The notes below the pieces were generated by a model that searched no databases, had not been told where the DNA came from, and saw only the letters and a list, made by a program, of their open reading frames with translations. From Guptibacillus hwajinpoensis (GTDB lineage: Bacteria; Bacillota; Bacilli; Bacillales; Bacillaceae_J), in NCBI GenBank assembly GCA_016841285.1, contig JAENZK010000005.1, positions 1-33,718 of the forward strand: a stretch of 33,718 nucleotides of DNA. Reading direction: 5' to 3'. A program made the position numbers and the translations under genes. Positions 5,690 to 31,056 of the stretch are shown here, in pieces. Within the stretch, counting starts at the first letter, position 1; the number at the start of each line of letters is the position of its first letter.

Positions 5690-7402
5690 TCAAAATAGAA
5701 AATATCGCTGCCCCATCGGGACTTTGTCAACAGGGTCACATGTAATAAGTTCTCCGTTTACTTTGACCTCATATGTTTGTGGATCAACGGATAATTCTGG
5801 AGTTTCCGAATTAAACTTCATGTCTTTTTTTGTTAACTTACGGATTCCGTGCACAGGTAAAATTACTTTTTCTAACCCGAGTTTTTCATGTACTTTATCT
5901 TCATAGGCTGCCTGGGATACAAATGTTATCGAACTCTTAGACAGTGCTTTACCATATGCTGCATACATTGGACGGCAAATGACGGGCTGCGGTGTTGGTA
6001 TAGAAGCATTGGCGTCTCCCATCATTCCATATACAATTAATCCACTTTTCAGAACCAATTCCGGTTTTACTCCAAAGAACGCTGGAGACCAAATAACTAG
6101 GTCGGCAATTTTTCCGACTTCAATGGAACCTACATAATCAGAAATGCCATGAGTAATGGCCGGATTGATCGTATATTTGGCGATATAGCGCTTCGCCCGG
6201 TTATTATCGGACAGTTTGCTATCCCCCTCAAGGGAGCCTCTTTGTAGTTTCATTTTGTCAGCCACTTGCCAAGTCCGTATAACTACCTCGCCAATCCGAC
6301 CCATTGCCTGAGCATCGGAACTAGTCATACTAAAAATCCCCATATCCTGAAGAATGTCCTCAGCAGCAATCGTTTCTTTTCTAATCCGAGAATCTGCAAA
6401 GGCAATATCCTCAGGTACAGATGGATTTAAATGGTGACACACCATTAACATATCGAGATGTTCATCAACCGTATTCACGGTATATGGTAATGTCGGATTA
6501 GTAGAAGAAGGCAGTACATTCATAAAACTAGCCGATTTAATTAAATCTGGTGCATGACCACCGCCAGCTCCTTCCGTGTGATACATGTGAATAACCCGAT
6601 CTTTTAATGCTGCCATCGTATTTTCCACAAATCCCGCTTCATTTAAAGTATCTGCATGAAGGGCAACCTGTACATCATATTTGTCGGCTACACTTAAGGC
6701 ATGATCAATTGCTGAAGGCGTTGCCCCCCAGTCTTCATGGACTTTAAGACCGATGGCACCCGCTCGTATCTGCTCAGCTAATGGTTCTTCTGATGCTGCT
6801 TGTCCTTTTCCAGTCAACCCAACATTAATTGGTAGTCCCTCTACGGCTTCTAACATCCGATGGATATTCCACTCACCTGGTGTAACCGTTGTCGCCCTCG
6901 AGCCAGCGGTCGGGCCTGTACCCCCTCCAATCAAAGTGGTAAGTCCAGCAGAAAGAGCGACATCTACTTGGGCTGGGTTGATAAAATGTACATGGGTGTC
7001 AAGACCTCCTGCTGTCACAATCATTCCTTCACCTGCAATAATCTCAGTTGAAGCCCCAATAACAATATCTACCCCATCCATAACTAGTGGGTTTCCAGCC
7101 TTTCCAATTCCTGAGATTTTCCCATCACGGATCGCGATATCCGCTTTGTATATTCCGGTATAATCCAAAATAACTGCATTTGTAATAACCACATCAGGAA
7201 TCCCATCGCCGCGTGTGACAAGCGGATCCTGTCCCATTCCATCACGAATAACCTTTCCGCCTCCAAAAACTACCTCTTCACCATAAGTAGTAAAATCCTT
7301 TTCGATTTGAATGAACAAATTGGTATCTGCCAATCGGATCGAATCCCCTGTGGTCGGACCGTACATTTCTGCATATTGCTTTCTAGACATTTCAAAACTC
7401 AT
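5690..7402 (-). CDS. ureC: Urease alpha subunit
   Basis: [33 protein letters not shown] (carbamylated Lys), [12 protein letters not shown] and MVCHHLNP (flap Cys/His) motifs. Confidence 0.98.
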
Positions 7403-13433: not shown

Positions 13434-13622
13434 AATCAAATGCCTTGGCGTATTTGCGCCCAGATTTTTTAGGCCCACACGATGTGGGTCACAAAGACGT
13501 TGCCACAGGATGTGGCGTTCTTAGTCTTTGATCTTATGCTCGAAAAACTACCATTGAAAATCTGTGGCATCCGCCGGAGGCTGTAAATTTATTCAGCAGT
13601 GAACTTCTGCTGAATAAATTTA
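13434..13622. repeat. Structured intergenic repeat element, long form
   Basis: Contains CCCACA-cga-TGTGGG, CAAAGAC-[GCCACA-gga-TGTGGC]-GTCTTTG and TAAATTTATTCAGCAG-(tgaactt)-CTGCTGAATAAATTTA; shares both ends with the short element at 14473-14534. Confidence 0.6.
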
Positions 13623-15458: not shown

Positions 15459-15467
15459 TGAAAAATA

Positions 15468-15556
15468 TAAGGGGAGCTGAGGGAACTTGGCTGAGAGGAT
15501 ACTAGCACGTATCGACCCGTTTAACCTGATCTGGGTAATGCCAGCGTAGGAATGAA
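15468..15556 (+). ncRNA. TPP riboswitch (THI element)
   Basis: GGGGAGC...GGCTGAGAGG...GACCCGTTTAACCTGATCTGGGTAATGCCAGCGTAGGAA matches the conserved TPP aptamer core; thiT downstream. Confidence 0.95.
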
Positions 15557-15590
15557 CATTGATTTTGAATGTTTTCACACTTTTTACGTT

Positions 15591-15656: not shown

Positions 15657-16250
15657 ATGAAAAGGAGTAAGACGCTATTTTTAGTCGAAGTCGCATTGTT
15701 TTCAGCGCTTGCTTTTGTTTTTGATTTATTAGCTAATATTTTTCAATTAAAAATTTGGGCTCAGGGTGGATCCATTTCCATTGCCATGGTTCCAGTTTTC
15801 TTAATTGCTTTCAGATGGGGAATCAAGGGCGGTATGCTATCAGGTCTATTGCTGGGCGGACTGCAGGTCGTATCTGGTCAAGCGTATATTGCCCACCCTG
15901 TTCAAGGTTTGCTTGATTATTTCGTTGCCTTTATCGTTCTTGGATTGGCTGGAGTGTTTATGAAACAAATCCAGCATGCCATTAATGAGCACTCAAAAAG
16001 TAAAGTGATAACCTATGTGATTGCTGGAACACTATTGGGAAGTGCTTTGCGGTACGCAGCCCATGTTGTAGCTGGAATCGTATTTTTCGGTGAGTATGCA
16101 CCCGCGGGTACTCCAGTAGCCATTTATTCACTATTATACAATGGTACCTATATGCTTCCTGCTTTTATTTTAAGTGCCATTTTTGTATCGTTGCTTATTA
16201 ACACCGCACCGAAGTATTTTAATGTAACAAGTGCAAAGTTAAATTATTAA
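15657..16250 (+). CDS. thiT: Energy-coupled thiamine transporter substrate-binding component ThiT
   Basis: MKRSKTLFLVEVALFSALAFVFDLL... six-TM ThiT/YuaJ-like protein behind a TPP riboswitch; AAGGAGG RBS. Confidence 0.93.
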   Translation: MKRSKTLFLVEVALFSALAFVFDLLANIFQLKIWAQGGSISIAMVPVFLIAFRWGIKGGMLSGLLLGGLQVVSGQAYIAHPVQGLLDYFVAFIVLGLAGVFMKQIQHAINEHSKSKVITYVIAGTLLGSALRYAAHVVAGIVFFGEYAPAGTPVAIYSLLYNGTYMLPAFILSAIFVSLLINTAPKYFNVTSAKLNY

Positions 16251-16268
16251 TTTAATTTATGGTTTGGA

Positions 16269-16308
16269 AATGGCCGTCCCTATTTGGGATGGCTGTTTTG
16301 TTTTTTCG
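16269..16308 (+). terminator. Rho-independent terminator of thiT
   Basis: GGCCGTCCC-tattt-GGGATGGCT followed by GTTTTGTTTTTT. Confidence 0.8.
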
Positions 16309-16334
16309 GGACAAGTTGATTGATGTTTGACTGG

Positions 16335-16543
16335 TTTGGACTGAGTTTGGGGATATGCGTTGCGTTTGTGTCTGAAGTTCGGGTTGCTTCGGACTCGGTT
16401 GGTGGAAGTACTCACGGTTGTGTCTGAACCTTGGGGGGCTTCGGACTCGTTTGGTGAAAATACTGGCGATGGAGTCCGAACACGTGGTGTCTTCGGACAG
16501 CTTTGCTGAGTGTGCTGGCAATCGAGTCCGAACACGAGACGAC
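16335..16543. repeat. Hairpin array A: 52-bp-period tandem repeat with GTCYGAA-N11-TTCGGAC hairpins
   Basis: Left arms GTCYGAA start at 16370, 16422, 16474, 16526 (exactly 52 bp apart); right arms TTCGGAC at 16388, 16440, 16492; degenerate end units. Confidence 0.85.
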
Positions 16544-16580
16544 GTTACCCAGACAACAAGAGCAAGCTAAAGTTTTCCTA

Positions 16581-17041
16581 ATGAAGACCATCCTCCAGGG
16601 AGTTAACAATAGTTATTGTCTTCATACCTATGATGAAGACATGTTTCCAAGGAACTGAACTAAGTTTTTGTCTTCATACCTAAAATGAAGACCAATTTCC
16701 AAGGTTCCAACTCTAATTTTAGTCTTCATTCTGGAGATGAAGACATGTTTTCAAGAAACTGACGTAAATTTTTGTCTTCATACCCAATATGAAGACCAGT
16801 TCACAAGGTTCCAACTCTAATTTTGGTCTTCATTCCGGAGATGAAGACATGTTTCCAAGGAACTGACATAAATTATTGTCTTCATACCAATGATGAAAAC
16901 CATTTCCCTAGGATACAACTCTAATTTTAGTCTTCATTCTGGAGATGAAGACATGTTTTCAAAAATCTGACGTAAATTTTTGTCTTCATACCAATGATGA
17001 AGACCAGTTCACAAGGTTCCAACTCTAATTTTGGTCTTCGT
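16581..17041. repeat. Hairpin array B: nine 52-bp-period units, ATGAAGAC-N29-GTCTTCAT, 7-bp linkers
   Basis: Units start at 16581, 16633, 16685, 16737, 16789, 16841, 16893, 16945, 16997, all 45 bp with 7-bp linkers; no indels. Confidence 0.95.
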
Positions 17042-17261
17042 CCTTTATTCACCCTGGGATTCGAGTCACCGTACCAGTCACCATACTAAAGTTGGTGCAG
17101 CAGTCATCCGTCTACCGCTCCATTCACCACAATTGCGACAGTTGAAGAAAACTAGTTGAAACTGCTGTACAGTACCCCCTTACCTCCACCGTTTGATGGT
17201 GCCCCACTACTTTAACTATGGTAAAATATTCTATATAAAGAAAATTGGGGAGGGTTTGTTC

Positions 17262-19646
17262 ATGTTAGAAGATTCAAGCTTTGCGATACACCCTGATTCT
17301 ATTGAGAACCTAACGAAGATTACGTATTACGATATTGGGTCACTCCTCTCTTTCCACCAAACCGATTCAATATTCACGTTTCAATGTCAACATGGATTTG
17401 TTCGATTACTTTTTTATAGAGATGATATTGTACGTATGGTTATGAATCCTTCTTCGGAACCTTCCTTAAAGAGCAGTGTTGCTTTAGTTAAACAGCCGGA
17501 AACAGTTCATGTTCAACTAAAAGAGCTTGATGAAAAGATCACATTAACCTCATCTAAAATCATTATTGAGCTTCAAAAATCACCGCTACGTGTTTGCGTT
17601 AAAGATAAAAATGGAAACATCCTTGTTACTGAATCCGAACTAGGAATGGGGTATACAAGTTCGAATGCTGTATTTTGTTTTAAAGATATGGATGTAGATG
17701 ACCATTTTTATGGCTTTGGTGAAAAAACAGGTTTTCTTGATAAGCGGGGGGAAAAAATGACAATGTGGAATTCTGATGTTTTTTCCCCACACAATCCTGA
17801 AACCGACGCACTATACCAATCAATCCCTTACTTCATGACTGTCAAAAACGGAAAAGCCCACGGGATTTTCTTTGATAATACATTTAAAACAACATTTGAT
17901 TTTATGTCAAACAACGATACCTATTCCTTTTCAGCCGAAGGTGGACAGCTTGACTATTACATTTTGGCAGGTCCAACCCCTAAGGCTGTAATCGAGCAGT
18001 TTACCGAATTAACAGGGCGCATGCCTCTTCCACCTAAATGGGCGTTAGGCTACCATCAGTCAAAATATAGCTATAAATCGGAGCAGGAAGTTAGGGAGCT
18101 TGTCAGTAAATTCGCCCAAAAAGAAATACCCATTGATGCCATTTATTTTGATATCCATTATATGAACGGCTATCGAGTCTTCACGTTCGACCGTGCTGCA
18201 TTTCCGGAACCAAAACAACTGATACAAGATTTAAAACAAGAGGGGATTCATGTTGTACCAATCGTTGACCCGGGTGTTAAAAAGGATCCAAACTACTACA
18301 TTTATAAAGAGGGGGTTCTTCAAAATCATTTCTGTAAATACCTAGAAGGTGACCTATACCTAGACGAAGTTTGGCCAGGAATGAGTTCCTTCCCTGATTT
18401 CACAAAAACAGAAACACAAAAATGGTGGGGAGAAAAGCATTCATTTTACACGGATTTAGGAATTGAAGGCATATGGAATGACATGAATGAGCCTGCTGTT
18501 TTTAATAAGACAAAAACAATGGATCTTGATGTGATCCATGACAATGATGGGGACTTAAAAACTCATCAAGAACTCCATAATGTATATGGTTTATTAATGG
18601 GAAAGGCCACGTATGAGGGCCTTAAACAGCAGTTAAATGGTAGGCGGCGCCCCTTTCTTCTAACTCGTGCAGGCTATGCCGGTATCCAAAGATATGCGGC
18701 AGTTTGGACAGGGGACAATCGGAGCTTTTGGGAGCATCTAGAAATGTCTCTGCCGATGTGCATGAATCTTGGGATTTCAGGGATTCCATTTTGCGGCCCG
18801 GATGTTGGCGGTTTTGCCCATGACTCAAACGGCCAATTATTAACAAGATGGATGCAGGTCGGAGCTTTTACACCATTTTTCCGAAATCATAATGCACTTG
18901 ATACAGTACCGCAGGAACCATGGGCATTCGGGGAAAAATATGAAAAAATCATAAAAAAATATATTCAACTTCGTTATCAATGGCTTCCTCACCTTTACAC
19001 ATTATTTATGGAAGCAAGCCGAACTGGAATTCCTGTAATGCGACCATTGTTTTTAGAATATCCAAATGACCCGAAGACAGCCAATCTGTCAGATCAATTT
19101 TTAATTGGTGATAACATTCTTATTGCCCCAATTTTGAGGCCTGATACTAATCACCGCGTAGTTTATTTACCCCATGGAGATTGGGTCAATTACTGGAACG
19201 ATGAGGTTATCCAAGGTGGAACCCATATCTTATTTGAAGCTGATCTGGAAACTCTGCCTATTTTTATAAAAAAAGGATCGATGATTGGTAATGGAGCGAT
19301 CAAGCACTCAACAATGGTTGCGGAAACCAATATGAAAATTCATCTCTACCCTAACGAACATAGAGAAATTACTTACAATTTATATGATGATGACGGAGAA
19401 ACTTTCGCATATGAAGAAGGCGAATATTTTCATAAAAAAATAACCTGTCAACTCATTCAATCTGATATTCAAATATCGATTCATAATGAGAACACTTCAT
19501 TCAAACCAAGCTGGAACGAGTGGACATTAGTGATTCATCTCTTAAAAAAACCAATAAGGGTATTTGTCAACGGTGAAAAAATCACGGATGAAAGGCTCAA
19601 ATACAATAGCGAAAAACATACATTTTCAATTAAATTTTATGAATAG
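17262..19646 (+). CDS. Glycoside hydrolase family 31 alpha-glucosidase
   Basis: GIEGIWNDMNEPAVF catalytic motif, WTGDNRSFWEHL, GISGIPFCGPDVGGF. ATG 17262 follows GGGGAGGG; the ORF-track start 17193 is too early. Confidence 0.93.
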   Translation: MLEDSSFAIHPDSIENLTKITYYDIGSLLSFHQTDSIFTFQCQHGFVRLLFYRDDIVRMVMNPSSEPSLKSSVALVKQPETVHVQLKELDEKITLTSSKIIIELQKSPLRVCVKDKNGNILVTESELGMGYTSSNAVFCFKDMDVDDHFYGFGEKTGFLDKRGEKMTMWNSDVFSPHNPETDALYQSIPYFMTVKNGKAHGIFFDNTFKTTFDFMSNNDTYSFSAEGGQLDYYILAGPTPKAVIEQFTELTGRMPLPPKWALGYHQSKYSYKSEQEVRELVSKFAQKEIPIDAIYFDIHYMNGYRVFTFDRAAFPEPKQLIQDLKQEGIHVVPIVDPGVKKDPNYYIYKEGVLQNHFCKYLEGDLYLDEVWPGMSSFPDFTKTETQKWWGEKHSFYTDLGIEGIWNDMNEPAVFNKTKTMDLDVIHDNDGDLKTHQELHNVYGLLMGKATYEGLKQQLNGRRRPFLLTRAGYAGIQRYAAVWTGDNRSFWEHLEMSLPMCMNLGISGIPFCGPDVGGFAHDSNGQLLTRWMQVGAFTPFFRNHNALDTVPQEPWAFGEKYEKIIKKYIQLRYQWLPHLYTLFMEASRTGIPVMRPLFLEYPNDPKTANLSDQFLIGDNILIAPILRPDTNHRVVYLPHGDWVNYWNDEVIQGGTHILFEADLETLPIFIKKGSMIGNGAIKHSTMVAETNMKIHLYPNEHREITYNLYDDDGETFAYEEGEYFHKKITCQLIQSDIQISIHNENTSFKPSWNEWTLVIHLLKKPIRVFVNGEKITDERLKYNSEKHTFSIKFYE

Positions 19647-30788: not shown

Positions 30789-31010
30789 CACTAATGACTC
30801 TAATTCCATTTAGTGACTGGCCGCCTAATTTTTCTGGCATATCGGGCTCTAAACTCTGCTTTAGCGACTGTACGCTCTCTTTTTCTTCCGCCTCGGTCAC
30901 TAAACCCGGCTTTAGTGACCGACCTCACTCCTTTTCCTCCTACTCAGGCTCTAAACTCTGCTTTAGTGACCGACCTCACTCTTTTTTGCCCATCTCGGGC
31001 TCTAAAAGCT
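30789..31010. repeat. Hairpin array C2: 51-bp-period units with CTAAA...TTTAGTGAC hairpins
   Basis: TAGYGAC at 30811, 30862, 30913, 30964 (51 bp apart); perfect GTCACTAAA-cccggc-TTTAGTGAC at 30896-30919. Confidence 0.9.
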
Positions 31011-31056
31011 CCCCTTGCGCACAAATCCCGACTCCCGCTCCCCAGGTTCAGAACAA

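Follow-up and report, generated by a model that had tools for sequence, protein, structure and literature searches.

Tandem repeats with a 52-nucleotide unit have been described in Bacillus and other Firmicutes as a class of constant size and variable sequence, with no sequence conservation between species (Subirana and Messeguer, PMC8161180). Several such families occur per genome, as a rule with 4-10 units each, and they are partly conserved between strains (PMC8161180; PMC8625621). Their discoverers proposed either a protein whose polymerisation on DNA requires repeats of constant size or a role through small RNAs (PMC8161180), and transcripts of repeats of this type have been reported from RNA-seq in B. 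coagulans (PMC8625621). The words palindrome, terminator and intergenic are absent from the 2021 paper (PMC8161180).

Other described systems share parts of the design reported here. REP/BIME elements with RAYT transposases are likewise dispersed intergenic palindromes that form tandem clusters and lie near gene ends, whereas the present arrays keep a fixed 52-bp phase and none of the RAYT genes examined is flanked by their arms, a different palindrome standing beside some RAYT genes. CRISPR arrays resemble them in the alternation of a palindromic element of 23-25 bp with one of 27-29 bp; this identity is not supported, as the ‘spacers’ here are homologous copies of each other within an array rather than unique, and tens of arrays occur in one genome. 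By eye, no cas genes were seen among the window open reading frames. In sopC of F, the tandem units are near integral helical turns, and a dimer binds the inverted repeat in each. The arrays share the near-integral spacing and the inverted repeat and differ from sopC in occupying many dispersed loci of chromosomal type, in lacking a recurring neighbour gene (in all-against-all blastp of 808 nearby open reading frames no family stands out by distance) and in the absence of any plasmid match for the window array; a plasmid centromere is therefore not supported, and a plasmid origin was rejected for want of such a match. A phage origin was rejected as well, neither of two arm families matching a viral contig.

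The window, by which we mean the whole stretch of 33,718 nucleotides that was analysed, carries a nine-unit array between a thiamin-transporter-like and a GH31-like gene, both on the + strand. The features referred to below are as follows.

15460..15569, + strand: TPP riboswitch of the upstream gene (Rfam RF00059)
15657..16250, + strand: upstream gene, thiamin-transporter-like (thiT), named from the riboswitch and the protein sequence
16268..16306, + strand: terminator-like hairpin with T-run, GGCCGTCCCTATTTGGGATGGC + TGTTTTGTTTTTT, following the upstream gene, read from the sequence
16306..17197, no strand: about 890 bp holding both intergenic arrays, missing from the orthologous locus of congener G001 (L197), from locus comparison
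16370..16532, no strand: second array of the same class, GTCYGAA four times and TTCGGAC three times, gap 11, interior 27, 52-bp register (TRF and pattern search)
16370, 16422, 16474, 16526 and 16388, 16440, 16492, no strand: half-sites of that second array, from the sequence
16581..17041, no strand: nine-unit array with A/B alternation from unit 2 (sequence, TRF, unit comparison)
16618..17004, no strand: eight dyads GTCTTCAT-N7-ATGAAGAC, one of them mismatched, in 52-bp steps, from the sequence
16618, 16670, 16722, 16774, 16826, 16878 (mismatch in unit 7), 16930, 16982, no strand: starts of these dyads, from the sequence
17263..19646, + strand: downstream gene, GH31-like alpha-glucosidase, named from its sequence
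30809..31012, no strand: third array, degenerate, its half-sites resembling TTTAGTGACC / GGTCACTAAA, with a gap of 6 and a period of 51 (TRF and sequence)

Congener G001 has the same gene pair with a short spacer between, and orthologues of the GH31-like gene are present in 7 of 7 genomes of the family. The array at 30809-31012 apparently represents the 52-bp class with other arms. Neither of the two further arrays nor the genome-wide family described below appeared in the first-pass annotation of this DNA. An Rfam scan of the window returned matches to TPP, Bacillaceae-1 and 5' ureB only, none of them on the array; the 5' ureB sRNA match (6963-7250, + strand) and the urease gene are on opposite strands, and the Bacillaceae-1 RNA match is at 13474-13540 (- strand).

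The nine 45-bp units, 7-bp linkers and exact 52-bp register that the first-pass annotation had described are borne out by the unit starts, which fall at 16581 + 52n with no indels, and by TRF, which finds periods of 52, 104 and 208, each with 0% indels and with scores of 335, 613 and 695, respectively. Every unit has the layout ATGAAGAC-N29-GTCTTCAT, the only imperfect arms being in unit 7 (ATGAAAAC) and at the last position (GTCTTCGT). The alternation of A and B types also holds: identities are 82-98% among A units, 84-96% among B units and 64-73% between them, unit 1 is an outlier to both, the alternation beginning with unit 2, and identity over interior plus linker rises from 0.49 at lag 1 to 0.81 at lag 2 and falls back to 0.49 at lag 3 (shuffle p ~0.02). 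The A consensus that had been quoted needs a small correction, as A units 3 and 7 deviate from it. Amplification of a dimer, one of the two origins suggested at first pass, fits the lag-2 identity of this array and fails as a general rule, period-2 order at p<=0.05 being present in about 5 of 52 arrays of six or more units. The other suggestion, selection on spacing, is strongly supported by the recurrence of a 7-bp gap, a 29-bp interior and a 52-bp period across many genera with unrelated interiors. As a class the array is no assembly artefact, a concern raised at the outset, since it is internal to a 33.7-kb contig and many independent assemblies contain arrays of this design; the source genome is a 484-contig draft, and the exact copy number of nine could still be collapsed.

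This array belongs to the published, unexplained 52-nt satellite class. That class is delimited by a length of 52 +/-1 with at least four repeats, and here there are nine units of exactly 52 bp; several families of equal length and unlike sequence occur in the genome (arrays with ATGAAGAC or TTCGGAC, besides others of 51-53 bp), and short signals are accompanied by their reverse (ATGAAGAC/GTCTTCAT in all units). The consensus repeats published for B. horikoshii and sp. m3-13 (PMC8161180) are members of the window arm family. Where the original description states no sequence conservation (PMC8161180), we find a common TGTCC-N17-GGACA frame and a placement beyond terminators. This dyad frame, the locked sub-spacings, the swapping of boxes and the evidence against pairing were not found in the papers compared. 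We propose, with a probability of about 0.5, that this array is a single locus among dispersed 52-bp satellites which would act as helically phased putative sites for a candidate dimeric DNA-binding protein.

How far does the design extend beyond this locus? With loops of 3-14 bp allowed, a search of this genome returned 69 perfect palindromes, the loop being 7 in all copies listed, and the reversed control gave 0; a fixed-loop search again gave a total of 69. Chance is excluded by this uniform loop under a free search together with the empty control. The palindromes are grouped in about 16 period-52 arrays whose interiors have diverged. Other genomes contribute at least 105 stretches with two palindromes in 52-bp register, all from Bacillales, judging by name, except for one Bacillota MAG; the genera among the matches listed are Sutcliffiella, Neobacillus, Mesobacillus, Ureibacillus, Lysinibacillus, Halalkalibacter and Metabacillus, with several Bacillus species. 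The single palindrome was found in 24 of 384 sampled genomes of the order, with up to 198 copies (one control match each in two genomes). The distribution of arrays is patchy, also within genera. Copy numbers at two loci of this draft genome (L002, ~1396-1496; L005, ~1442-1452) are unsafe because assembly gaps, seen as N runs, fall inside the repeats. Two other loci of the same genome (L037, 2054-2170; L077, 2105-2265) hold arrays of 21/42-bp period with TTACCCGTAAATT-like units, probably the published 20-21-nt class.

The geometry is locked while the sequence between the arms is free. Across loci, 562 gaps have a length of 7 (five have 8, two have 6), 585 interiors a length of 29 (21 have 28, nine have 30) and 519 periods a length of 52 (17 have 51, 13 have 53); since the foreign loci were retrieved with a single exact pair in register, part of this constancy reflects their selection, from which the search of the own genome is free. 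Per-site divergence within arrays is 0.00-0.10 in the arms, 0.14-0.32 in the interior and 0.33-0.48 in the linker, which is thus the fastest-changing segment and yet keeps its length. Interior positions 12, 23 and 34 are A/T-rich (92%, 79% and 85%), one helical turn apart and symmetric about the unit centre; the TTCGGAC family has similar positions, and weak symmetric covariation occurs within the interior at 9-37, 10-36 and 11-35. Since five turns of B-DNA take up nearly 52 bp, the dyads would face one side of the helix. Arrays end in a full 45-bp unit in about two-thirds of cases and in a full dyad in about one-third, and since both endings occur the ends were rejected as a guide to the true unit. 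Terminal half-sites without a 7-bp partner are perfect in 64-70% of cases against 80-84%, and are still fairly conserved.

The same period is found with different arms. The TTCGGAC family (gap 11, interior 27, period 52) occurs in 25 of 289 genomes, mostly a different set from that of the window-arm family. A third family, GTCCAATAG-N7-CTATTGGAC in 52-bp steps, is present in two genomes of one genus, and the third sampled member of that genus carries GTCTTCAT arrays in its place; in the same two genomes AATAG and TTCAT units stand adjacent in a single array, in a single register and with similar interiors. What is common is a frame, TGTCC-box-N7-box-GGACA, with a 5-bp box and a recurrence every 52 bp, of which the window arms are an instance less one base per side. 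A box-blind pattern, GTCC-N17-GGAC-N27-GTCC-N17-GGAC, is present in 68 of 374 Bacillales genomes, belonging to 30 of 131 genera, with up to 181 matches per genome, and its reversed control has no match in any of the 374. In 233 distinct dyads the flanking bases outside the query are T in 79% and A in 89%. These dyads contain 63 different boxes; within a dyad both boxes tend to be similar (0.77 vs 0.34 when shuffled), and they are identical in only 82 of 233. Dyads with unequal inner boxes, for example GTCCGATTG and GTCCCTTTG, occur in G054, G133, G143 and G186, as if there were two readers or a heterodimer. The GTC..GAC frame covers much of the 52-nt class and not all of it: 8 of the 18 published 52-nt consensus repeats tested fit, the rest being other inverted repeats or none clear. 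One 52-bp array (L134, 1996-2347), with the dyad GAAGAGA-CCGCT-TCTCTAC, is outside the frame, equal in length and different in its outer bases.

The arrays lie beyond gene ends and terminators and are nearly absent between divergent promoters. By simple ORF and terminator finders, on which these counts rest, 63 of 90 arrays are in co-directional, 22 in convergent and 5 in divergent contexts, one of the five being this window, mis-scored through a spurious ORF. A terminator is aimed at the array from the side of the upstream gene in 30 of the 63 co-directional cases, and from the other side in 1.

The main rival to phased protein sites is a selfish, REP-like element whose palindromic units would be copied to new intergenic places by an enzyme acting in trans, the 52 bp meeting a need of that enzyme and the cell gaining no benefit. 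The patchy presence fits this explanation, as does presence or absence at orthologous sites, one 3-unit array being missing at its orthologous place (L111 vs L161). In most of the genomes tried, interiors from separate loci of the genome resemble one another more closely than column-shuffled interiors do, which speaks for it too and indicates that arrays have also been copied between loci. We nevertheless consider it unlikely. RAYT genes occur with and without arrays: Y1_Tnp is found in 30 of 32 genomes regardless of arrays, and array-bearing G244 has none. At the Y1_Tnp loci examined, part of the copies per genome, arm palindromes are absent. There is no link to resolvases, target-site duplication was not recognised, and neither phage copies (of two arm families) nor plasmid copies (of the window array) were found. 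In Sutcliffiella-type genomes a long palindrome, AAAACACCTTTAGGGGTCTGACCCCTAAAGGTGTTTT, stands near RAYT-like (Y1_Tnp) genes at L220, L223 and L225, and is likely a REP or terminator of these genes.

Improbable, in our estimate, is an RNA function, by which the array would be transcribed and its alternative hairpins would serve as a small RNA, a sponge or a termination/stability element. The first-pass annotation had noted two mutually exclusive folds. These are physically possible, and the predicted RNA fold of the array strand is strong (z -6.5), as such inverted repeats would give; the reported B. coagulans transcripts (PMC8625621) favour the same explanation. Pairing is, however, no conserved feature of the arrays. 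Among changed arm pairs, 7 of 341 inside units and 6 of 227 spanning the gap are compensated, one-sided changes far outnumbering these, and wobble-preserving and pair-breaking changes are balanced at 29 vs 31 loci (p 0.90). Changes in the arms being neither compensated nor wobble-tolerant, hairpin selection is not indicated, and the unequal inner boxes in dyads of other genomes agree with this. The position of arrays beyond terminators and an exact period that an RNA stem does not need count further against RNA. The arms are conserved as sequence and not as base pairs, which favours recognition of the double-stranded sequence.

Still less probable is a neutral satellite grown by slippage and unequal exchange from a chance ancestral unit, its length kept by descent rather than selection. 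Concerted evolution is indeed seen: orthologous arrays of Sutcliffiella-type genomes keep their place, change in copy number (12, 7 and 8 in one case, 9 and ~20 in another) and homogenise by locus, and terminal units are the more divergent in 43 of 52 arrays. Neutrality does not, however, account for arms that are nearly invariant beside diverging linkers and interiors, for lengths fixed over genera with unrelated interiors, or for one period with different arms. Recombinase core sites have conserved inverted arms round a short variable gap, and an array of such cores, with 8-bp arms round a variable 7-bp overlap and expanding and contracting by recombination, would match the strict 7-bp gap of our dyads, but it is highly implausible given gap-plus-arm lengths that vary by family, a fixed 29-bp interior that it would not need, the lack of inverted units in the arrays read and the absence of small serine resolvases (HTH_7), a candidate prompted by the outer TGTC, from array-rich G151, G175, G190, G199, G277, G015, G054 and G240.

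Phased protein-binding sites are suggested by the locked lengths with free sequence, the linker above all, and by the common period despite different arms, with TGTCC-N17-GGACA present against an empty control and its unqueried flanking T and A conserved. A/T-rich positions one helical turn apart, arms conserved as sequence, the placement beyond terminators and the two box types sharing a register and similar interiors in a single array point the same way. Each half-site (ATGAAGAC here; generally GGACA/TGTCC with its 5-bp inner box) would be bound by one subunit of the candidate protein, and two half-sites across the short gap would form a dyad. Dyads repeated every 52 bp, about five helical turns, would lie on one face, where bound protein may bridge or polymerise along the array, with a presumed architectural effect. 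Arrays would grow by local tandem amplification and be homogenised by unequal exchange; they are copied to other intergenic places beyond terminators, and the inner box is exchangeable with the frame kept. Several points count against this proposal. Patchiness within genera is odd for a housekeeping architectural role, the conservation of partnerless terminal half-sites leaves the functional dyad spacing ambiguous, and the transcripts reported in B. coagulans (PMC8625621) have to be set against it; a search for the binding protein found none, and no gene tested tracks the arrays.

A more tentative idea, which we regard as possible though doubtful, is that the constant frame and swappable 5-bp box constitute a code for diversifying DNA-binding proteins which form polymers along phased arrays, with co-evolution of box and protein as lock and key. 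This would account for the change of box type between congeners and even within one array, and if a specific reader exists the box-swap signature should covary with a gene family. The 52-bp phasing predicts that half-turn insertions should abolish cooperativity. The 52-nt satellites had been an enigma, constant in length and seemingly without common sequence or known function. The dyad frame makes the class testable, supplying a defined bait, TGTCC-box-N7-box-GGACA, and a search pattern with no reversed-control match in 374 genomes.
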